In this document: positions 6,068-32,538 of the stretch, one piece after another | How positions within the stretch are numbered: position 1 is the first letter of the stretch | Layout: the number at the start of each line of letters is the position of its first letter | NCBI GenBank assembly: GCA_040754395.1 | Contig: JBFMCL010000014.1 | Span: 1-64,000, forward strand | DNA length: 64,000 nucleotides | Source of the DNA: Nitrospirota bacterium | Lineage (GTDB): Bacteria; Nitrospirota; Thermodesulfovibrionia; Thermodesulfovibrionales; SM23-35 | Direction of reading: 5' to 3' | Program-made: the position numbers and the translations under genes | Notes under the pieces: model-generated | Seen by the model: only the letters and a program-made list of their open reading frames with translations | What the model was told of the DNA's origin: nothing | The model's database searches: none

Positions 6068-9000
6068 ATGCGCATCGATAAGCTTGAATTGATCGGCTTC
6101 AAGTCTTTCGGGGAGAGAACCTCATTCAACTTCCATCCCGGTATTACCTGTATCGTTGGCCCGAACGGGTGCGGAAAGAGCAACATTGTTGACGCGTTCC
6201 GGTGGGTCCTTGGAGAACAGAGCGCGAAGAGCCTTCGGGGGGAAAAAATGGAGGAGGTTATCTTTAACGGATCGGTTTCGAAGAAACCCAGGGGGATGTC
6301 AGAAGTGACCCTTGCCATTTCCGGGCTCAACAGCGCATCGCAGGCAGAGCAGGGAGATAACGGAGAAAGTTCGGGGGATACCGTAACGGTTACGAGGAGG
6401 CTTTACCGGTCAGGAGACAGTGAGTATCTGATGAATAAGAGCCAGTGCAGGCTGAAAGACATAAAAGACCTCTTTCTTGATACAGGGCTTGAAGTGCGAA
6501 GCTATTCGATCCTTGAGCAAGACAGGATAGCGGAGATTCTGAATGCAAAACCCCTTGAAAGAAGGTTCCTGATCGAGGAAGTCGCCGGGGTGATGAAATA
6601 TAATGTCAGAAAGAAAGAAGCCCTTTCCAAGCTCGACTCATCGAGGGCGAACCTCCAGAGGATCAATGATATTATTATTGAAGTAAAAAAACAGATCAGT
6701 TTCCTCGACAGGCTGGCAAAGAAAGCGGAACGATACAAGAAACTCATCTCTGAGATTCATGCCATCGAACTGAAGCTTGCAAAGCGGGATTTCGAAAGTC
6801 TTCGAGAGTCCTTTCAGGCGCTGAATGCGGAATACCACGTGATCAAAGAAGAAGATGCGCTCAAACGGGCAGATCTCTCAAAGTTCGAAACTGCGGCAGA
6901 GACAAGAAGGCTCCAGCTTCTGGAAATGGAAAAGCAGGTGGATCAGGTGCAGGATAAATTCCAGAACCTTGAAAGGGAGATCGCTGACATCGAAAAAAGT
7001 ATTGCGGTCGCGGGTTCAGAGGCAGAAAACTATTCAGAATACCTCTCGAAGCTGTATCAGCAAAAGGACGAATTTGGCAAAAAGGGATCTGATTTCCTGA
7101 TTCGGAAACACGAACTGGAGCAGGCGGAAATTGATCTGCATGAGGAAATTCAGCGACAGAAAGAACTCTTGGAAGACAAGGCTGATTTCATCCGCGCTCA
7201 GGAGGAAGAACTCTCGGACAAAGAGGAACTGCTGGAGGGAAAAAGGCGGGAGATCTTCAGGATATCGGAGGAGCTCAGCTTCCTGAGAAACAACCAGAAC
7301 AAGCTCCAGGCAGCGTTTGAAAACCTGAGGCACCGTGAAGAAACGTCCCAGAAGGACTCGGAACATCTCAAAAAGATACTGGGAGAACTGGATGCCTCAT
7401 TGAAGGACCTTGAGGCAAACCTTCTCGAAAGAAGCAATGACATTATGCTTCTGAGAGAGAGAAAGGAAATAAAGGTCAAAGAAGCTGCGGCGGCGAACAA
7501 CCGGATGGAAAACCTCAGAGAGACATTATCCAAAGTGAAAGAGGAACTTGCCTCCCACATATCACGGGTCGATTCCCTGAGAGAAATCGTATTCGATGAA
7601 TCAGCGCAGGAGCTGTTGTCCGGTGAGGCGGGGTTTCACATGATTGCGGCGATTTCTGATGTCATCGAAGTTGACGATGAATATGAAAAGGCAATAGAGA
7701 GCGTGCTGTCTGAAAAGGTGAATTCCTTTGTCCTTTCCTCATACCATGATATCGAACATGCCATAAAAATATTAAAAGACAAGGGGTTAGGAAGAACAGC
7801 CTTTTTCCCTGCCGATGCAGTGCATTCCGCCGGACCACAGGATGAACCGGAAGGGGTGCTGGGAAGAGCGAGCACATTCCTGAAGGCAAAAGAAGGGTTT
7901 ACGGAGATTGCCCTGAGTCTTTTTCAGAATGTATTTGTGGTTCCCGACCTGAAGGCAGCGCTGACCCTGATTGCCGTAAACAAGAGGCAACTCTATGTAA
8001 CTATGGACGGAGACGTTGTGGAACCTTCCGGTGCGGTGATCGCAGGAGAAATTAAGGGGATTTTCAAAAGGAAAAGGGAGATACGTGAACTCGAGGACGC
8101 GATAGAAAACAGTAAAAACAAAATCCAGAGCCTCCAGGCTGAATTGAATGCAATCCTGCACGTGATTGATGCTCTGCAGAACGAAACAAAGGGAATAGAA
8201 GCCACGATCATTGAGAGAGAAAAAGAAGTATCTCTCAAGAAACTGACCGCGGACAATTACCGGGAAGAAAAAGAACGGAGGAGCAGAAAACTTGCCTATC
8301 TTTCCCTTGAGCTGGAACAGATAATGAGGGAAAAGGAATCTCTTGAGAAGCAGCTTGCCGAAAAGGAAGCGGAGATTCAGTCTGCCGACCTGAAGAGGGG
8401 TGCATCGGAGGAGATGAGTGCGAACCTGTATGAGGAAGTATCGCAGAAACGAGCAGGAATCGAGGAGTATCGTTCCGAGGCCACCGAGATACGGCTCGAA
8501 ATAACCTCACTGAAGGAGAGGGGAGAGTCAGTCAGCAAGGAAAGAGAGAATATCGCGCGGGAAATCAGCGAGAGCGCGAGGAAGCAGGAATTTCTTGCAG
8601 AGGAGATCACCTCGGTAAAATCCCGCATAATGCAACGGCAGGAAGAGATCAAGGTGAATGAGGAGAAACTGAAATCACTCGTTACCGTTGCAGATGAATA
8701 CCGGCAGGAAATATCCCGGCAGAGGGAAATCATCAGTAACGAAAATCATGAGCTTCTTGAGGCAGAACATGAACTGAAGAGCCTCAGAGCCCAAATAGAG
8801 ACTTTTTCCCGGAGGATCTCCGAACTCGATGTCCAGAAGGCGGAGCATAGGCTGAAGATGGAGGCACTCACTGAAAACATCAGGCAAAATTACGGGCTTG
8901 CAATAGATGCCCTTGAAGCAGAACCGTTTACTGAGGAAGACGAAATACAGCTTGCAGAGTTGCGGCAGAAAGCGCAGGAACTCGGGCCCGTAAACCTTGG

Positions 9001-24069: not shown

Positions 24070-24099
24070 TTGACAGCACACAGCGGTTTAGAGTAGTAT
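24070..24099 (+). promoter_or_regulatory. promoter of the tetR-menaquinone operon
   Basis: TTGACA (24070-24075), an 18-base spacer and TAGTAT (24094-24099). The TetR-type palindrome begins inside the -10 box. Confidence 0.75.
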
Positions 24100-24119
24100 T
24101 GAGTGAGCACTCACTCAAT
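24098..24119. promoter_or_regulatory. TetR-type operator
   Basis: A 22-bp palindrome with perfect 10-bp arms: ATTGAGTGAG, a CA centre, CTCACTCAAT. The TGAGTGA/TCACTCA half-sites are typical of TetR-family operators. It covers the end of the -10 box and the transcription start, so binding should block the whole operon. Confidence 0.8.
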
Positions 24120-24218
24120 TTATTGAAACATTCACCGTCTGCAAGGATTTCCGGCAATGGTGCTGATTCTCCGGCAGAAGATCCTGCCCGGGAGAAAGTG
24201 CAGAGGACAGGAAACAGC

Positions 24219-24854
24219 ATGCTCAGGGACAGTAAAGAAGACCGAAAAAATCATGACAAGCGGACACGCATCCTTGATGCCGCACTGAAGACATTTGTGA
24301 AACGGGGCTTTCCCGACACGAAGGTTGCCGAGATTGCGTCGGAAGCAGGAGTGGCTGAAGGGACGCTCTACAACTATTTCCCGAGCAAGGAGGATCTTCT
24401 CCTCGCCCTTTTTGATGAAAAATGGGGCGGAATCATTGAGGAGATCAAAGGAAAGATCAGCCGGCTTGACGACCCGAACAAAAAATTGAAGGCAATATTT
24501 TCCCTGGTCGTGAGGATGTTCAAGAAGAACAGGCAACTGGCGGAGCTGTTCATGGTTGATGTCAAGCAGAGCAGCATTTTCCTGAACAATTACACGATCA
24601 ACCGTATTGTGGAATTTCTTGACATGATCGAAGAGGTTCTGGAGGAGGGAAAGGAGAAAGGGATTTACCGCAGGGATCTTGATACCCGTGTCGCAAAGAT
24701 GATCATTTTCGGGGCAGCCCAGGGAATTCTCCTGAGCTGGGTGTTGAGTGAATCGGCAGCGGTAAGAAAGCAGACCTTTAAGTTTTCCCTCTATCGTGCT
24801 GCAAAGACACTGAAAGACATTTTCAAATCCGGACTGGTTGGAGAAAAACAATGA
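24219..24854 (+). CDS. TetR/AcrR family regulator heading the menaquinone operon
   Basis: A 211-residue TetR-family regulator. The start ATG 24219 is preceded by AGGAAACAGC; a reading from 24099 would begin inside the operator and is rejected. The helix-turn-helix is at residues 16-62: RILDAALKTFVKRGFPDTKV, then AEIASEAGVAEGTLYNYFPSK. The C-terminal ligand-binding domain is all-helical, around FMVDVKQSSIFLNN and the final ILLSWVLSES; no ligand can be read from it. Its stop codon overlaps the ubiD start (ATGA), so it is the first gene of the operon and probably represses itself together with the quinone genes. FadR- and AcrR-like members often sense acyl-CoAs or hydrophobic molecules, which is only a suggestion here. 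Confidence 0.9.
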   Translation: MLRDSKEDRKNHDKRTRILDAALKTFVKRGFPDTKVAEIASEAGVAEGTLYNYFPSKEDLLLALFDEKWGGIIEEIKGKISRLDDPNKKLKAIFSLVVRMFKKNRQLAELFMVDVKQSSIFLNNYTINRIVEFLDMIEEVLEEGKEKGIYRRDLDTRVAKMIIFGAAQGILLSWVLSESAAVRKQTFKFSLYRAAKTLKDIFKSGLVGEKQ

Positions 24855-26296
24855 TATTTCAAGACCTGAAGGAGTTTATCGCATTTCTGGAAGACAAGAA
24901 GGAACTGGTGCGTATTAAGGCTGAGGTTGATCCGGTGCTCGAAGTAACAGAAATTACCGACAGGATATCGAAAAAGGGCGGGCCAGCCCTTTTGTTCGAA
25001 AATGTAAAGGGCTCCCGGATGCCGATAGTAATCAATCTCTTCGGCTCCTACCAAAGGATGAGCTGGGCGCTCGGAGTAGACGACTTCGGCAAGATCAATC
25101 AGCGTTTTGCCTCTCTGCTGAAGGGCGAGATTGATTTGAATATGCGCGAGAAGCTGGAGGCACTCTACGGTCTCTACAAGTTGAGTGCCTCCAAGCCAAA
25201 AGAGATAAAAAGGGCGCCTGCCCAGGAGATAGTGAAAGAAAAGGACTTCTCCCTGTTTGAATATCCTGTGCTGAAATGCTGGCCCGGAGACGGAGGGCGG
25301 TTTATCACCCTTCCCCTTGTGATCACAAAGGACCAGGAAAGCGGGAAGCAGAATGTGGGAATGTACCGGATGCAGGTCTATGATGAAAAAACTACCGGAA
25401 TGCACTGGCATACGCACCATGACGGTGCAGTAAATTACCGCAAGGCGGTGAAACTCGGCAAGCGGCTCGAAGTTGCCGTTGCCCTTGGCGGCGATCCGGT
25501 GACCATCTTTTCAGCGACAGCGCCGCTCCCGTACGGGATTGAGGAGCTGTTTTTTGCGGGGTTCCTGAGGGGCAAGCCGGTCGAAGTGGTCAGGGCAAAG
25601 ACCGTTGACCTGCTGGTACCTGCACGGGCTGAAATCATCCTTGAGGGATATGTCGAGATCGGTGAAAAGAGAAGGGAAGGACCGTTCGGCGATCATACGG
25701 GCTATTACTCGATCGCTGATGACTATCCGGTTTTTCACGTGACCTGCATAACCCAAACAAAAGATCCTGTATATCCTGCGACAATCGTCGGAAAGCCGCC
25801 TATGGAAGACTGCTACATGGGAAAGGCGACCGAGCGCATGTTCCTTCCGTTTATTAAGATGCAGCTTCCGGAGATCGTGGATGTGAACCTGCCGCTCGAG
25901 GGCGTATTTCATAATTGTGCCCTGATCTCCATCAAGAAGGCATACCCCATGCATGCGCGAAAGATAATGAATGCGATCTGGGGGCTCGGGCAGATGATGT
26001 TCACGAAATTCATCTTCATTTTTGACGAAGAGGTGGATGTGCAGAATACCTCTGAGGTAGCCTGGAAGGCTTTCAACAATGTGGATCCAGCCCGGGATAT
26101 CATGATTGCGGAGGGGCCTCTCGATGTTCTCGACCATTCTGCTCCACAACCTATTTATGGGGCAAAGATGGGGGTAGATGCAACAAAAAAATGGCCGGAA
26201 GAAGGGTACCAGAGGGAATGGCCTCCGGAAATTCACATGTCTGAGGAGATAAAGACGCTTGTCGAGAAGAGATGGAAGGAATATGGTTTTAAGTGA
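24851..26296 (+). CDS. UbiD family prenyl-FMN-dependent decarboxylase (menaquinone route)
   Basis: A 481-residue UbiD-type decarboxylase, which uses prenylated FMN supplied by UbiX. Family features are visible at the N-terminus (FQDLKEFIAFLEDKKELVRI), the prFMN-binding centre around GMYRMQVYDEKTTGMHWHTH, and the active-site region EGPFGDHTGYYS. In futalosine organisms, a UbiD/UbiX pair removes the ring carboxylate from the naphthoate after prenylation by MqnP, and this operon has exactly that trio. Its start overlaps tetR by four bases and its end overlaps the prenyltransferase frame. A role in another aromatic decarboxylation cannot be excluded, but the context strongly favours menaquinone. 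Confidence 0.9.
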   Translation: MIFQDLKEFIAFLEDKKELVRIKAEVDPVLEVTEITDRISKKGGPALLFENVKGSRMPIVINLFGSYQRMSWALGVDDFGKINQRFASLLKGEIDLNMREKLEALYGLYKLSASKPKEIKRAPAQEIVKEKDFSLFEYPVLKCWPGDGGRFITLPLVITKDQESGKQNVGMYRMQVYDEKTTGMHWHTHHDGAVNYRKAVKLGKRLEVAVALGGDPVTIFSATAPLPYGIEELFFAGFLRGKPVEVVRAKTVDLLVPARAEIILEGYVEIGEKRREGPFGDHTGYYSIADDYPVFHVTCITQTKDPVYPATIVGKPPMEDCYMGKATERMFLPFIKMQLPEIVDVNLPLEGVFHNCALISIKKAYPMHARKIMNAIWGLGQMMFTKFIFIFDEEVDVQNTSEVAWKAFNNVDPARDIMIAEGPLDVLDHSAPQPIYGAKMGVDATKKWPEEGYQREWPPEIHMSEEIKTLVEKRWKEYGFK

Positions 26297-27198
26297 GAGA
26301 AAAGCCTCTGCGCTGGGTGGGCATCGGAATGGCGGGTAAAGTAAAAATATATCTGGAGATGATTAAATTCCAGCACAGTATTTTTGCACTGCCTTTTGCA
26401 TATCTCGGTGCCTTTCTTGCAAGAATGAGGGTTCCTGAGCTGGAGACGCTTTTCTGGATTACCCTTGCGATGGTCGGCGCAAGGAGCTTTGCCATGGCAG
26501 TGAACAGGCTGATTGACAGGGAAATCGATCGCAGGAACCCGCGGACTTCGGCAAGGGCTTTACCGCAGGGACTCCTTTCTGCATGGAACGTAGTAGTGTT
26601 TTCTTTTTTCAGTCTGGCGGTCTTTTTGCTGGCGGTATATCACCTGACGCCGATATGCCGTTATCTCTGGCCTGCAGTGGTGATCCCGTTTGTTATATAT
26701 CCTTATACCAAGAGGTTCACCTGGCTTTCCCATTTTGTGCTCGGCTTCTGTCTCGGTCTTGCACCGGTGGGTGCCTGGATAGCGGTGACCAACACGCTCA
26801 GTCCGGAGCCGCTCATAATTGGCGCGGCAGTCCTTTTATGGGTAGCAGGCTTTGATATTTTTTATGCGATTCAGGATATGGATTTTGATATCAGGCAGAA
26901 ACTTCATTCGATTCCTTCAAGGTTTGGTATCAGCACGTCTCTTGCCCTGACAAGGATACTTCACTTCACAGCAGTAGCACTATTGGTCTGGCTGGGAATA
27001 CGGCTCGAAATGGGAATATTCTACTTTGCAGGGGTTGCCGCCGCTGCCCTGCTGCTTGCGTATGAGAACAGCATTATCAAGGCAAATGATCTGTCGCGGC
27101 TGAACGTCGCGTTCTTTACGATGAACGGGATTGTCAGCATCGTCATGTTCTGCTTCGTTGCCATGGAAATATTCTTCAGGAACCCGGGCAATGTCTGA
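26293..27198 (+). CDS. mqnP: UbiA-family prenyltransferase (MqnP)
   Basis: A 301-residue (or 289 from ATG 26329) polytopic prenyltransferase that joins a polyprenyl chain to the naphthoate ring. The first Asp-rich motif region reads AVNRLIDREIDRRNPRT, matching NxxxDxxxD, and the second is DIFYAIQDMDFD. About eight hydrophobic segments can be drawn. The GTG at 26293 overlaps the ubiD stop (GTGA), favouring translational coupling. The ATG at 26329 (MAGKVKIYLEMIKFQHSIF) matches the usual family start, so either is possible. It sits between ubiD and ubiX, the standard arrangement for the late steps of the futalosine pathway. Confidence 0.88.
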   Translation: MREKPLRWVGIGMAGKVKIYLEMIKFQHSIFALPFAYLGAFLARMRVPELETLFWITLAMVGARSFAMAVNRLIDREIDRRNPRTSARALPQGLLSAWNVVVFSFFSLAVFLLAVYHLTPICRYLWPAVVIPFVIYPYTKRFTWLSHFVLGFCLGLAPVGAWIAVTNTLSPEPLIIGAAVLLWVAGFDIFYAIQDMDFDIRQKLHSIPSRFGISTSLALTRILHFTAVALLVWLGIRLEMGIFYFAGVAAAALLLAYENSIIKANDLSRLNVAFFTMNGIVSIVMFCFVAMEIFFRNPGNV

Positions 27199-27775
27199 GT
27201 TCGTGGTCGGCATCACGGGTGCGAGCGGGAGTATTTATGGCATCAGGCTTATAAGAGAGCTTTGCCGGAGAAATCATGCGGTCAATGTAGTGATCACTTC
27301 CGCCGGGAAACAGGTGATGCAGGAGGAACTTGGGGTGTCCGGTTTTGACGATATGGAGAAGCTGGGACTTGCGGAAGCATGCAAATCGCTCACGCTATGG
27401 GAAAACAGTAACTTCCATGCGCCGTTCATGAGCGGATCAAGTGCACCTCAAGCGGTCATTATGATTCCGTGCAGCGTGGGAAAATTGGCTGCCATTGCAC
27501 ACGGAATCTCTGCAAATCTGCTCGAAAGAACGGCAGATGTGGCATTGAAGGAAAGAAAAAGACTGATACTTGTAGTGCGTGAAACGCCTCTCAGTCTGAT
27601 CCATCTCGAGAACATGGTAAAGGCTGCGAAGGCAGGCGCTGAGATCCTGCCTGCGATGCCGGCGTTCTATCACCATCCTCGGACAATCGACGACATGGTC
27701 AATTTCATTGTGGGAAAGGTCTTGAACCTTCTGGGAATCGCACATGATCTTTTCCCGGCATGGAGAAAAGAGTAG
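27191..27775 (+). CDS. ubiX: UbiX family flavin prenyltransferase
   Basis: A 194-residue flavin prenyltransferase, making prenyl-FMN for UbiD from FMN and dimethylallyl phosphate. The N-terminal VVGITGASGSIYGIRLIREL is the FMN-binding loop. The central segment with APFMSGSSAPQAVIMIPCS and the later ERKRLILVVRETPLS followed by HLENM and AGAEILPAMPAFYH are hallmarks of the family. ATG 27191 lies eight bases inside the prenyltransferase gene. It provides the cofactor for the UbiD enzyme two genes upstream. Confidence 0.93.
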   Translation: MSEFVVGITGASGSIYGIRLIRELCRRNHAVNVVITSAGKQVMQEELGVSGFDDMEKLGLAEACKSLTLWENSNFHAPFMSGSSAPQAVIMIPCSVGKLAAIAHGISANLLERTADVALKERKRLILVVRETPLSLIHLENMVKAAKAGAEILPAMPAFYHHPRTIDDMVNFIVGKVLNLLGIAHDLFPAWRKE

Positions 27776-27877: not shown

Positions 27878-28993
27878 ATGAATAAGGAGAATCTCAAGAG
27901 AATCGGGGAAAAGGTCGGCAAGGGCATGCGGCTTTCCAGGGAAGATGCGCTCGATATGATGGAATCGCACGATATCCTTACCCTCGGAAAGCTTGCAGAC
28001 AGGGTAAGGGAACGGAAATCAGGCAACTATGCCTATTTCAATGTCAACCGTCATATCAACCTGACCAATATCTGTATATCCCGCTGCAAGTTCTGTGCAT
28101 TCAGCCGGGACAAGGAGGATCATGATGCATATGCCATGACCATCGATGACGTGATGGACATCGCACGGGATGCCCGCAATCTTGGCATTACCGAATTTCA
28201 CATCGTCAGCGGCCTGCATCCCGACCTTCCCTTTGCGTACTATCTCGAGGTGATCTCCCGTTTAAAAAATATGATGCCCGAGGTGCACATTCAGGCCTTC
28301 ACTGCAGTTGAAATCGACTATTTTGCCAAAATCGCGAAATGTTCGGTCAGGGATGTCCTGATACAGTTAAAGGACGCCGGCCTGGGCTCACTTCCCGGCG
28401 GCGGTGCCGAGATCCTGAATTCGCGGGTGCGTGAGGAGGTCTGCGCAAAAAAAGCATCTGCTGAGGAATGGCTGGAAGTCATGAGGACAGCGCATAGCCT
28501 CGGGCTGAAGTCGAATGCTACCGTGCTGTACGGGCATATTGAGAGCAATGAGGAGCGGGTAGCACATCTTCTGAGACTAAGGGAACTCCAGGATGAAACA
28601 GGGGGGTTTCAGTCCTTTATCCCGCTGCCTTTCCATCCGAAGAATACCCAGATGCCGGACTTCACTAAACCGACCGCCATCGAGAATCTGAAGATGCTGG
28701 CGATTTCAAGACTCCTTCTGGATAACTTCCCTCACATTAAGGCATTCTGGATAATGCTCGGCCTGAAAATTGCGCAACTCTCGCTCCTTTTCGGGGTTGA
28801 TGACCTTGATGGTACCGTTGTTGAGGAGAGGATAACACATGCCGCAGGAGCTGAGACCGAGCAATCCATTTCGCGGGAAGAATTGCTGGAACTGATTTTC
28901 GCCGCCGGAAGAATTCCGGTGGAGAGAGATACCCTGTACAACATACTCAGGGTATACGGGAATGCCCAACAGGGTGCAACGGTTGAGACCTAG
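27878..28993 (+). CDS. mqnE: aminofutalosine synthase
   Basis: A 371-residue radical SAM enzyme that joins 3-[(1-carboxyvinyl)oxy]benzoate to S-adenosylmethionine, giving 6-amino-6-deoxyfutalosine. The cluster motif CISRCKFC has Cys66, Cys70 and Cys73 in the CxxxCxxC pattern. Further family marks are NVNRHINLTNIC, EFHIVSGLHPDLPFAYY, and SLPGGGAEIL with VREEVCAKKAS. The HxxSGLHP stretch fits MqnE better than the paralogue MqnC. The start ATG follows a weak GGAATGG. About 100 bases separate it from ubiX, the largest gap in the operon, but no terminator or promoter was recognised there. Confidence 0.93.
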   Translation: MNKENLKRIGEKVGKGMRLSREDALDMMESHDILTLGKLADRVRERKSGNYAYFNVNRHINLTNICISRCKFCAFSRDKEDHDAYAMTIDDVMDIARDARNLGITEFHIVSGLHPDLPFAYYLEVISRLKNMMPEVHIQAFTAVEIDYFAKIAKCSVRDVLIQLKDAGLGSLPGGGAEILNSRVREEVCAKKASAEEWLEVMRTAHSLGLKSNATVLYGHIESNEERVAHLLRLRELQDETGGFQSFIPLPFHPKNTQMPDFTKPTAIENLKMLAISRLLLDNFPHIKAFWIMLGLKIAQLSLLFGVDDLDGTVVEERITHAAGAETEQSISREELLELIFAAGRIPVERDTLYNILRVYGNAQQGATVET

Positions 28994-29837
28994 GGTAGGA
29001 CATATCCAGTTTTTGAATTGTCTGCCGTTATATTACGGTCTGGTGAAGAACTGCGCCCTGCTTGATATAGAGCTCATTAAAGGCATGCCTACGGAACTGA
29101 ATAACCTTCTGGTAAACGGCGGTCTTGATATCTCTCCTGTTTCCTCTATCGAGTATGCCCGGCATCATGATTCACTGGTATTGTTTCCCGATTTTACGGT
29201 GAGTTCAAACGGTGAGGTCAAAAGCATACTCCTGCTCAGCCGCTGTCCGATAGAAGAATTGTCGGATCAAAAGGTTGCGTTAACTACAACCTCAGCAACT
29301 TCACAGGTCCTGCTGAAAATCATCCTCAGCCGCGGCTATGGCGTTGCTGCAGAGTATGTCCCCTGCAGGCCTGATCTGGAAAGCATGCTGGCCGTTGCAG
29401 ACGCAGCTTTGCTCATAGGGGATATGGCTTTGCACTACTATGATAAGACAGATGACTATTACTGTTATGACCTAGGACGTGAATGGAAAAAGCTGACCGG
29501 GAAAAGAATGGTCTACGCGGTCTGGGCGGTCAACAGGGACTTCGCCGAGACAAAGAATGAACTGTGCGGGAATGTCTTCGATACCTTCAAAAAATCAATG
29601 AATTACTCGGCAGAGCATCTTTCGGAAATAGTTGCATATGCCGCCAAATGGGAACCGTTCAGCCCTGCGTTTCTCGCAGGATATTTCCAGTCTCTCCATT
29701 TTGGTTTTGGTGCTGAGTATCAGGAAGACCTGCTATATTTCTATAAAATGGCGTTTCAGATGGGAGAGATTGAGACTGTTCCGGAACTGGAATTTGTCAG
29801 TTTCCGTGCCGGAGTTACAACTGGAGTCACAATATGA
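28962..29837 (+). CDS. mqnA: chorismate dehydratase
   Basis: A 291-residue MqnA, dehydrating chorismate to 3-[(1-carboxyvinyl)oxy]benzoate, the first committed step of the futalosine route. The N-terminal VGHIQFLNCLPLYYGL is diagnostic, as is the ligand-binding GGLDISPVSSIEYARH with TTTSATSQVLLKIIL. It overlaps mqnE by 32 bases if ATG 28962 is used; a TTG at 28983 (MRPRVGHIQF) would give an 11-base overlap and a more usual family start. It is followed without a gap by mqnC. Confidence 0.93.
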   Translation: MPNRVQRLRPRVGHIQFLNCLPLYYGLVKNCALLDIELIKGMPTELNNLLVNGGLDISPVSSIEYARHHDSLVLFPDFTVSSNGEVKSILLLSRCPIEELSDQKVALTTTSATSQVLLKIILSRGYGVAAEYVPCRPDLESMLAVADAALLIGDMALHYYDKTDDYYCYDLGREWKKLTGKRMVYAVWAVNRDFAETKNELCGNVFDTFKKSMNYSAEHLSEIVAYAAKWEPFSPAFLAGYFQSLHFGFGAEYQEDLLYFYKMAFQMGEIETVPELEFVSFRAGVTTGVTI

Positions 29838-30904
29838 TGCCGCAAAAGATTTTGCAGGAAGTGATATCTGGCAGGAGAGTAAGCACTGCAGAAGCAAAGT
29901 ATCTTTTTGAAGAGGCTGATCTGCTTGAGACTGCAAAAGCTGCTGATGCTGTCAGGCAGAAGAAGCATCCGGACGGAATCGTCACGTTTCTCATCGACCG
30001 CAATGTTAATTACACCAACATCTGTCAGAACCAGTGCGCATTTTGTGCGTTTTATCGTCCCAAAGGCCATCCTGATGCGTATGTCCTGAGCCAGGATGAG
30101 ATTGAGAGAAAGGTTGCCGAGACGGTTGAACTTGGCGGCACCCAGCTTATGCTTCAGGGAGGGATCAATCCTGACCTCTCTATCGAGTATTATACGACCA
30201 TGTTCAGGGAAATAAAAAACAAATTCAGGATCAGGATTCACAGCCTGTCTCCTCCTGAGATCGTGCATATCGCTGAATCAGCAGGGATGTCTATCCCGGA
30301 GGCGCTTAAGGAACTCAGGAAAGCAGGACTCGATTCATTGCCGGGCGGAGGTGCCGAGATTCTCGCAGACCGGGTCAGGCAGAGGATCAGCCCGCGGAAG
30401 ATACTCTCCGGACAGTGGCTTGAAGTTATGGAAGAGGCGCATAAGCTTGGGCTGAAGACAACAGCGACCATGATGATCGGCACGGTTGAAACTCTTGAAG
30501 ACAGGCTGGAACATCTTCTCAAAATACGTGACCTGCAGGACAGAACTGGCGGATTTCTCTCGTTTATCCCATGGACATTCCAGCCAGGCAACACCTCGCT
30601 GGGAGGAAGTCCGGTGTTCCCGCTCGAATATCTGAGGTTCCTGTCTCTCAGCCGGATATTTCTGGATAACTTCCGGAATATTCAGGGCTCATGGGTCACT
30701 CAGGGGAAGGATATCGGCCAGGTTTGCCTGTCTTTCGGCGCAAACGACCTTGGCAGCATCATGATCGAGGAGAATGTGGTACGGGCTGCAGGCGTTTCCC
30801 ACAGGATAACTGTTGAGGGTATGGTTGACCTGATACGGAAAGCCGGAAAGATTCCTGCCCAGAGGGACACAGAATTTGCTATTCTCAAGGCATATAATGC
30901 CTGA
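29834..30904 (+). CDS. mqnC: dehypoxanthine futalosine cyclase
   Basis: A 356-residue radical SAM enzyme that cyclises dehypoxanthine futalosine. The cluster motif CQNQCAFC has Cys64, Cys68 and Cys71. It resembles mqnE in sequence (SLPGGGAEILADRVRQRISP) but carries the cyclase-type QLMLQGGINPDLSIEYY and FIPWTFQPGNTSLGG. Its ATG overlaps the mqnA stop by four bases. Its substrate requires prior removal of the base from aminofutalosine, and the only candidate for that step here is the downstream MTAP-like gene. Confidence 0.94.
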   Translation: MMPQKILQEVISGRRVSTAEAKYLFEEADLLETAKAADAVRQKKHPDGIVTFLIDRNVNYTNICQNQCAFCAFYRPKGHPDAYVLSQDEIERKVAETVELGGTQLMLQGGINPDLSIEYYTTMFREIKNKFRIRIHSLSPPEIVHIAESAGMSIPEALKELRKAGLDSLPGGGAEILADRVRQRISPRKILSGQWLEVMEEAHKLGLKTTATMMIGTVETLEDRLEHLLKIRDLQDRTGGFLSFIPWTFQPGNTSLGGSPVFPLEYLRFLSLSRIFLDNFRNIQGSWVTQGKDIGQVCLSFGANDLGSIMIEENVVRAAGVSHRITVEGMVDLIRKAGKIPAQRDTEFAILKAYNA

Positions 30905-30951: not shown

Positions 30952-31782
30952 ATGATAAGGAACAGAGAAATCCCTAAAGCAGAGTTTGCCTTCATCGGCG
31001 GGTCCAGCACCTATGCGGTTGATTTCCCCGGCGACCTTGGCCTGAAAAAGACGAAAGTGCTGGATAGAAAAACATTTATGACTCCTTTTGGAGAGAGCCC
31101 GGAATTCACCCTGTTCACAATCGGGGGAGATAATGTGCTGACGCTCAGGATGCACGGATGGCGTGCCGGCGTCAGGCGGGCAGAAGCTTCGCGCCAGGTC
31201 TTCTGGGTTCTTGAGCAGGCCGGGGTAAGAACCGTTCTTGCGGAGGGAGGAGTGGGAACAATACGGCAGGACATGAAAATGCGCGATTTTATCGTCCCTG
31301 ATGATTACCTTGACCTTTCCCTAAGGAAGGATGTCTGTCTTTCTGATAGGTATCTGCTCATCATGCGGGATCCGATCTGTCCCGACCTCTCCGAAGTGCT
31401 TGTTTCTGCAAGCAAAAGATTATTTCCTGACAGAAATGTGACAAGGGGAGTATATGCAGTGACTGACGGGCGGCATTTTGAAAGCCGTGCGGAGGTCAGG
31501 ATGATCGCGGCTATGGGCGGAGATGTTATTGGTCAGAGTCTCTGTCCTGAAGTGTATCTTGCCCGCGAGATAGGGGCATGTTATGCGGGTGTGTATCTGG
31601 CGGTCAACAGGGCAGAGGGAATCGGTACTGACTGGAGCCATAAGGAATTAAAGGATATTTTCTATCAGGAAGGTATCAATATCGGAAAAATCATTCTTGA
31701 AAGTCTCTCCGAGATACCACGGTTGCAAAAGAAAAACTGTCAGTGTGCACAATTGAGAAAAAAGACTCTGCTGAAATCATAG
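30952..31782 (+). CDS. MTAP/PNP family nucleoside phosphorylase-like protein, candidate aminofutalosine nucleosidase
   Basis: A 276-residue protein of the methylthioadenosine phosphorylase / purine nucleoside phosphorylase family. FIGGSSTY matches the phosphate-binding glycine loop, AEGGVGTIRQDMKMRDFIVPDDYLD the central core (quoted in two parts: AEGGVGTIRQDM, DFIVPDDYLD), and GGDVIGQSLCPEVYLAREIG the base/ribose site. The family's usual RHGxGH is altered to RMHGWRAG and MTxxPE to QSLCPE, so substrate preference has probably changed. It sits between mqnC and menG where a nucleosidase (MqnB or MTAN) would be expected. I infer that it cleaves 6-amino-6-deoxyfutalosine, perhaps by phosphorolysis. 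Ordinary methylthioadenosine salvage is the alternative. Confidence 0.7.
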   Translation: MIRNREIPKAEFAFIGGSSTYAVDFPGDLGLKKTKVLDRKTFMTPFGESPEFTLFTIGGDNVLTLRMHGWRAGVRRAEASRQVFWVLEQAGVRTVLAEGGVGTIRQDMKMRDFIVPDDYLDLSLRKDVCLSDRYLLIMRDPICPDLSEVLVSASKRLFPDRNVTRGVYAVTDGRHFESRAEVRMIAAMGGDVIGQSLCPEVYLAREIGACYAGVYLAVNRAEGIGTDWSHKELKDIFYQEGINIGKIILESLSEIPRLQKKNCQCAQLRKKTLLKS

Positions 31783-31815
31783 AAAGAAAAACTCTGAAAA
31801 TCCCCGGTGTTGTTC

Positions 31816-32538
31816 ATGAACCATTTCGACCATAAAAAGCGTGATGCACAGCAGGTGGAACAGATGTTTTCTGCGATCGCATCACGCTATGACTTCCTGA
31901 ACCATGTGCTCAGCTTTGGACTGGACTTTGGCTGGCGAAGAAAGGTGGCAGAGGAAACCGGAACAATTCAATGCCGGAGAATTCTCGATGTCTGTACAGG
32001 GACCGGGGATATGGCCATCGAGCTCTGCAAGTTCTGGAGAGGAAAGGCGCATATTGATGGGCTGGATTTTTCCCATGAACTTCTTGAAGTGGCGAGGCGA
32101 AAGATCAGAAACACTAAACTCGTGGACATGATAACCTTAAGGGAAGGAAATGCCGAAGACCTCCCCTATCAGGATGAACAGTTCGATGCCATTACTATTA
32201 CCTTCGGCCTGAGGAACATCAATGACAGACTCAGAGCGCTCAGGGAATTTTACCGTGTAGCCAGGCCGGGAGGCTGTTTTGTATGTCTGGAATTCAGTCA
32301 GCCGAGAAATGCTTTTTTTTCAGGGATTTATTCCGTGTATCTCCTGAAACTGGTGCCGCTTGTCTCAAGACTCCTCGGCTCAAACCCCGGCGCGTACAAG
32401 TACCTTGGGGAAACGATAAAGGATTTTCCTCCCCCCACCGACCTTGCCCGGCTGATTTCGACCGCGGGATGGAGTGAGGTAACCTTCCGGACACTGGCAG
32501 GAGGGATAGTGGCACTGCACCGGGGCGTGAAATACTGA
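31816..32538 (+). CDS. menG: demethylmenaquinone methyltransferase
   Basis: A 240-residue UbiE/MenG methyltransferase, using SAM for the last step of menaquinone synthesis. Motifs seen are the N-terminal VEQMFSAIASRYDFLNHVLSFG (read as VEQMFSAIASRYDFLN plus HVLSFG), motif I RILDVCTGTGDMAIEL, the family-specific ITITFGLRNINDRLRALREF, and LVPLVSRLLGSNPGAYKYLG with SIxxFP-like IKDFPPPTDLA. ATG 31816 was chosen; an upstream GTG adds three residues. It closes the operon. A MITE-like element begins 11 bases after its stop, and no terminator is seen between. Confidence 0.93.
   Translation: MNHFDHKKRDAQQVEQMFSAIASRYDFLNHVLSFGLDFGWRRKVAEETGTIQCRRILDVCTGTGDMAIELCKFWRGKAHIDGLDFSHELLEVARRKIRNTKLVDMITLREGNAEDLPYQDEQFDAITITFGLRNINDRLRALREFYRVARPGGCFVCLEFSQPRNAFFSGIYSVYLLKLVPLVSRLLGSNPGAYKYLGETIKDFPPPTDLARLISTAGWSEVTFRTLAGGIVALHRGVKY

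Follow-up and report, generated by a model that had tools for sequence, protein, structure and literature searches.

MqnZ in a Nitrospirota menaquinone operon, a candidate stand-in for MqnB and MqnD

The futalosine route to menaquinone is encoded in the window (the whole 64,000-nucleotide stretch of contig C14 that was analysed) by an operon with the order mqnL-mqnP-ubiX-mqnE-mqnA-mqnC-mqnZ-menG, every gene of which is on the + strand (Table 1). Which step is served by the MTAP/PNP-family protein encoded between mqnC upstream and menG/ubiE downstream? The gene, referred to here as mqnZ, is an open reading frame of 276 codons with an ATG start and AAGGAT directly 5' of it, in a genome of 2.98 Mb that is 99.96% complete and whose relatives also have the futalosine pathway. 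A preliminary description placed a divergent MTAP/PNP-family gene with altered RMHGWRAG and QSLCPE motifs at these coordinates, correctly on each count, and suggested that its product takes the place of MqnB by releasing adenine from aminofutalosine through phosphorolysis. It overlooked the absence of mqnD. The operon is headed by a gene for a TetR-type regulator, found in the same place in two other genomes (G128 and G178), which may control menaquinone synthesis.

Table 1. Coordinates of the mqn operon, of MqnZ motifs and of related features in other genomes; positions without a locus prefix are those of the window
Feature	Position	Strand	Evidence
TetR-type regulator gene	24099-24854		same place in G128 and G178
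mqnL, UbiD family decarboxylase	24851..26296	+	TIGR03701, 640 bits (cut-off 496)
mqnP, UbiA family prenyltransferase	26293..27198	+	TIGR01475, 302 bits (cut-off 181)
ubiX/mqnM, flavin prenyltransferase	27131..27775	+	TIGR00421, 206 bits (cut-off 109)
mqnE, aminofutalosine synthase	27878..28993	+	TIGR03700, 521 bits (cut-off 435)
mqnA, chorismate dehydratase	28962..29837	+	sole PF02621 protein of the genome
mqnC, cyclic dehypoxanthinyl futalosine synthase	29834..30904	+	TIGR03699 (equivalog), 506 bits (cut-off 428)
mqnZ (P0001, 276 aa), MTAP/PNP-fold protein	30952..31782	+	PF01048 (PNP_UDP_1), E 7e-32; orthologues in 42 genomes
menG/ubiE methyltransferase	31807..32538	+	TIGR01934, 246 bits (cut-off 158)
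Met67-His-Gly-Trp-Arg71, in place of MTAP Arg60-His61	31150..31164	+	invariant in 73/73 MqnZ; first position Arg in 24/24 MTAP/MTIP
Glu98-Gly-Gly-Val-Gly102, in place of MTAP Thr92-Thr93-Ala94	31243..31257	+	71 Glu and 2 Asp of 73; G99-G102 invariant
Thr171-Asp-Gly-Arg-His-Phe-Glu177-Ser178; Glu177 in place of PNP Glu201	31462..31485	+	column comparison
Gln195-Ser196-x-x-Pro-Glu200; Gln in place of Met	31534..31551	+	Gln in 73/73 MqnZ, Met in 31/31 MTAP/MTIP/PNP
Asn219, in place of PNP Asn243 / human MTAP Asp220	31606..31608	+	Asn in 73/73
mqnZ remnant	L310 (G208:C30), about 8006-8068	right strand	86% identity over 21 residues
Amidohydrolase gene near mqnZ	L137:8940-10271		recurs at five more loci
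MTAP/MTIP-like protein with RHGVSGYSL and SWTGPGAIN	L063:3171-4019; L064:3767-4615; L066:3646-4515		own clade (100/100)
Joint mqnC/MTAP-like frame (G012)	L065:4105-5853		582 codons

Family membership and missing enzymes

PF01048 takes in MqnB, MTAN, MTAP, MTIP and PNP, and PF02621 takes in MqnA and MqnD. PF01048 is the only Pfam family matched by the window protein, in which the PF02621 domain is absent. Among NCBIfam models it scores best with MTAP, but its 124 bits fall far short of the cut-off of 275, which marks the protein as divergent within the superfamily. The MTIP model gives 91 bits (cut-off 223), and the models for MqnB (TIGR03664) and MTAN (TIGR01704) give no match to it at E 0.001.

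The name MqnZ comes from Ravcheev and Thiele (2016, PMC4746308), who saw a PF01048 protein encoded next to mqnC and mqnE in mqnD-less Firmicutes and predicted from gene neighbourhood that it replaces MqnD; their example was M. hypermegale MHY_27640, and M. multacida was among the genomes named. Our literature search found no biochemistry on MqnZ since that one-paragraph prediction. When genome contigs were scanned with three queries (the window protein and two of its close orthologues), 78 MqnZ loci and 42 distinct genomes emerged, the orthologues being 47-71% (most 50-71%) identical to the window protein. The candidates include the orthologue of Mitsuokella multacida DSM 20544 (56% identity, E 4e-102), which has the invariant motifs in common. 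Its recovery by the scan identifies the window gene, at the level of sequence, as the already predicted MqnZ, to which membership in Nitrospirota is an addition. Holders are mostly Selenomonadaceae, Desulfotomaculum-type clostridia, Syntrophomonas and Nitrospirota, with further loci in Selenomonas, Anaerovibrio, Pelotomaculum, Desulfofundulus and Hydrogenibacillus; the named relatives of the closest orthologues are Nitrospirota. The PF01048 protein tree groups MqnZ as a single clade (100/100), which branches on a long stem next to MTAP/MTIP and outside the MqnB clade.

Only two PF01048 proteins are encoded in the whole genome: MqnZ and, on contig C16, a paralogue over both the MTAP and the MTIP cut-offs. 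The search thus found neither MqnB nor MTAN in this nearly complete genome, in agreement with the preliminary description. There is no mqnD either; with MqnA as the single PF02621 match in the genome, a hidden second MqnD is rejected. The window case resembles the one predicted in 2016 in being a PF01048 protein beside mqnE and mqnC in a genome without mqnD, but it lies in Nitrospirota and in a full mqnL-P-ubiX-E-A-C-Z-menG operon. Moreover, the prediction concerned replacement of mqnD alone; because mqnB is absent from this genome as well, the replaced unit would be mqnBD.

We give almost no credence to the idea that mqnZ is an ordinary methylthioadenosine salvage gene merely located in the operon. 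Although MTAP is its best named family, this idea is rejected by the family scores, by the separate 100/100 clade and by the true MTAP/MTIP on C16, and the strict exchange of mqnZ with mqnBD described below also speaks against it.

Exchange of mqnZ with mqnB and mqnD

The gene mqnD is absent from 41 of the 42 distinct MqnZ-bearing genomes examined, one of which (G293) has an outlying MqnZ sequence and no PF02621 match at all. At each of the 19 loci that were checked, including one from the exception (G283), the main PF02621 protein was MqnA-like; a weak additional PF02621 match in G269 is similar to neither MqnA nor MqnD. In a phylum sample of 91 genomes with PF02621 but without MqnZ, 80 have at least two PF02621 members (Fisher test, 6e-23, with the reservation that related genomes are not independent). 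The same split is seen within the window's family, where all ten MqnZ genomes have one PF02621 protein and no mqnD, whereas all five pathway genomes without MqnZ have two PF02621 proteins and an MqnB-clade protein (10/10 versus 0/5, p 3e-4). Where MqnZ-free relatives were examined, mqnB and mqnD were commonly immediate neighbours. Among the MqnZ genomes sampled in the PF01048 tree, an MqnB-clade protein occurs only in G283 (locus L159). No other genome was found to combine MqnZ with an mqnB-mqnD pair, a combination that weighs against the stand-in reading; this MAG is possibly an intermediate of the exchange, or contaminated. One further member of the family, G164 (98% complete), has no MqnA, MqnD or true MqnC, the whole pathway being gone.

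The closest view of the exchange comes from two members of the window's family, G138 and G208, which have the identical operon, mqnL-P-ubiX-E-A-C-menG, minus mqnZ. Both own mqnBD as a pair elsewhere in the genome, and the MqnB product of G138 is over the futalosine hydrolase cut-off. Their MqnC proteins fall inside the clade of MqnZ-type MqnC (98/94), so that mqnZ was most simply lost in these two genomes. In G208, a 21-residue remnant of mqnZ matching residues 170-190 (E 2e-10) persists in the short gap that separates mqnC from menG; nothing convincing was found when a remnant was sought in G138. The MqnB proteins of the two genomes are sisters in the PF01048 tree, which fits a single arrival of mqnBD ahead of the loss of mqnZ. 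As the same operon is found either with mqnZ or, in genomes that own mqnBD, without it, the gene and the pair would be functionally exchangeable in one context, and MqnZ and the pair MqnB plus MqnD look interchangeable on these comparisons.

The explanation that we prefer, at about an even chance of being right, is that MqnZ stands in for both MqnB and MqnD. It draws on family membership, operon position, the absence of mqnB and mqnD, and the exchange with mqnBD among close relatives. MqnZ shares with MqnB (TIGR03664) the PF01048 superfamily and, on this reading, the base-removal step, but MqnB belongs to a different branch and is present in relatives without MqnZ. With MqnD, the 1,4-dihydroxy-6-naphthoate synthase (PF02621), it has neither family nor sequence in common, and it would fill the same pathway gap as a non-orthologous replacement.

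We consider it improbable that MqnZ takes over only the MqnB step, cleaving futalosine or aminofutalosine as a nucleosidase or phosphorylase, with some other protein in the place of MqnD. The superfamily and fold of nucleoside-cleaving enzymes, the retained purine-site residues and the missing mqnB all agree with such a role, which was that given to the gene in the preliminary description. However, it is an incomplete account, since mqnD is lost as strictly as mqnB: the near-universal loss of mqnD in several bacterial lineages would be left without explanation, and no MqnZ retains the ribose-site Met or the phosphate-site Arg. Nor does another protein recur beside mqnZ across lineages; a comparison of mqnZ neighbourhoods found no recurring gene beyond the mqn genes and local synteny. 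At six loci, an amidohydrolase gene recurs near mqnZ and is a possible aminofutalosine deaminase.

It is also conceivable, although rather unlikely, that MqnZ replaces MqnD only, as proposed by Ravcheev and Thiele (PMC4746308), while the base is removed by an MTIP-type paralogue (here that on C16) or, elsewhere, by DeoD or MTAN. Nothing accompanies MqnZ more constantly than the absence of mqnD, MqnZ genomes nearly always encode a DeoD or MTAP/MTIP-type protein, and the promiscuous MtiP of M. jannaschii has been suggested to be able to serve the futalosine pathway (PMC6302742). On the other hand, G138 has kept an MTIP-type protein side by side with MqnB, so MTIP does not evidently make MqnB dispensable, and the 6-oxopurine pair that is fully conserved in MqnZ (see below) would be needless in an enzyme acting on base-free cyclic DHFL alone. 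In three cultured Selenomonadaceae (S. ruminantium HD4, S. montiformis and Anaerovibrio sp. JC8), the PF01048 set consists only of DeoD and MqnZ; MTAN in the Selenomonadaceae is rejected, most of the candidate proteins being DeoD-type PNPs. These three genomes and the co-occurrence in G138 favour base removal by MqnZ, although a promiscuous MTIP or DeoD may supply this step instead.

Other Nitrospirota families have an MTAP/MTIP-like protein of a separate clade encoded beside or near mqnC and a deaminase-like amidohydrolase (Table 1), maybe another stand-in for MqnB. In G012, mqnC and an MTAP-like gene make up one open frame in which each part is truncated; this may be a fusion, a deletion or an assembly error.

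Active site and proposed chemistry

The predicted structure of the window protein (pLDDT 87.6, pTM 0.88) has the MTAP fold, a subunit of the trimeric PNP type (Z 28, rmsd 2.6 over 254 residues). In MTAP we take Arg60 to be a phosphate contact, Met196 a ribose contact and Asp220 an adenine contact. Alignment columns were compared between 73 MqnZ sequences and 24 MTAP/MTIP plus 7 PNP sequences. The motifs RMHGWRAG (residues 66-73) and QSLCPE (195-200) are not a local oddity, as their core letters are invariant in the 73 orthologues. In all of these, the phosphate-site Arg60 of MTAP has become Met67 and the Met next to Thr197 in MTAP, MTIP and PNP has become Gln195. The PNP-type Arg/His pair is absent, with Trp70 and mostly Ser or Pro instead, and nearly all MqnZ carry Arg-His rather than Pro-Arg ahead of the base-site Phe. 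The phosphate site retains His68 and Ser18/Ser196, and the base site retains Glu177 and Asn219, for which human MTAP has Ser and Asp. The equivalent Glu201 and Asn243 of PNP hold the purine base and form the 6-oxopurine contact (PMC9921493). MqnZ is like MTAP/MTIP (TIGR01694, PRK09136; PDB 3t94, 3ozb) in fold (Z 26-28), in a C-terminal CxC and in the Glu/Asn base pair, which is that of the MTIP-type rows, but differs in its own clade, in scores well under the family cut-offs and in the changes Arg to Met, Met to Gln and Thr-Thr to Glu-Gly.

Since the base site has the 6-oxopurine pair, futalosine, with hypoxanthine, is a likelier ligand than aminofutalosine, with adenine, which had been the substrate first put forward. 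Taken together, the changes and retained residues suggest an enzyme that binds a hypoxanthine nucleoside, lacks the ordinary phosphate site and has acquired a new acid/base at the sugar. Simple phosphorolysis, also part of the preliminary description, is disfavoured by the change of Arg60 to Met67 and of Thr-Thr to Glu-Gly and by the lack of the PNP-type Arg/His. A version in which a ribose-1-phosphate-type product bypasses MqnD through MtnA-like isomerisation followed by an aldolase, on the model of MTA salvage, could appeal to the MTAP fold, to the phosphate-site residues that are kept and to the presence of MtnA in the window's genome and most MqnZ genomes. We regard it as very improbable, given the loss of the phosphate-site Arg from every MqnZ. 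In addition, a PF01008 match is absent from five MqnZ isolate genomes and lies below the cut-off in a sixth (G274); as these six lack a convincing MtnA, the route cannot be obligatory, and its compulsory form is rejected.

How, then, might MqnZ serve in the place of both enzymes? Here we infer both reactions, and the residue roles from the sequence alignment. MqnA and MqnE would make aminofutalosine, which a deaminase would convert to futalosine; two deaminase-type amidohydrolases in the window's genome are candidate futalosine makers. On its trimeric MTAP/PNP-type scaffold, MqnZ would take hypoxanthine off futalosine with water, not phosphate, Glu98 being the likely base at the former phosphate site while Glu177 and Asn219 grip the hypoxanthine. 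Following the cyclisation step of MqnC, the same remodelled ribose site (Gln195, Glu98 and Arg71) would open and cleave the sugar remnant of the cyclic product, giving 1,4-dihydroxy-6-naphthoate, and MqnP, MqnL and MenG would perform the final steps to menaquinone. Alternatively, MqnC might come first, with MqnZ acting once afterwards.

An MqnD-type role for MqnZ, alone or with base removal, is better supported than the exact chemistry. It is quite doubtful that one PNP-fold enzyme performs both N-glycoside hydrolysis and the C-C cleavage that frees 1,4-dihydroxy-6-naphthoate, possibly in a single visit after MqnC if MqnC takes base-bearing futalosine. To our knowledge, there is no precedent for a PNP fold carrying out MqnD-type ring opening and C-C cleavage. 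A change in MqnC indicating a new substrate is rejected: column differences between MqnC with and without MqnZ are mostly of lineage type; the MqnZ-free side of this comparison included a few mislabelled copies that belong to MqnZ genomes. The columns that part MqnZ bearers from G138 (V94 and I215) both vary within the MqnZ set.

In summary, our analysis adds to the 2016 prediction the replaced unit mqnBD, a relic of the exchange in G208, a specific set of residues and the extension to Nitrospirota, and the present data make the prediction directly testable. A single enzyme with both chemistries would, if confirmed, represent the collapse of two pathway enzymes into one. If MqnZ does perform the MqnD step, the purine nucleoside phosphorylase fold has gained C-C cleavage, and the menaquinone annotation of Negativicutes, Desulfotomaculum-type clostridia and Nitrospirota would need to change, because the standard marker mqnD is missing there though the pathway otherwise looks complete.
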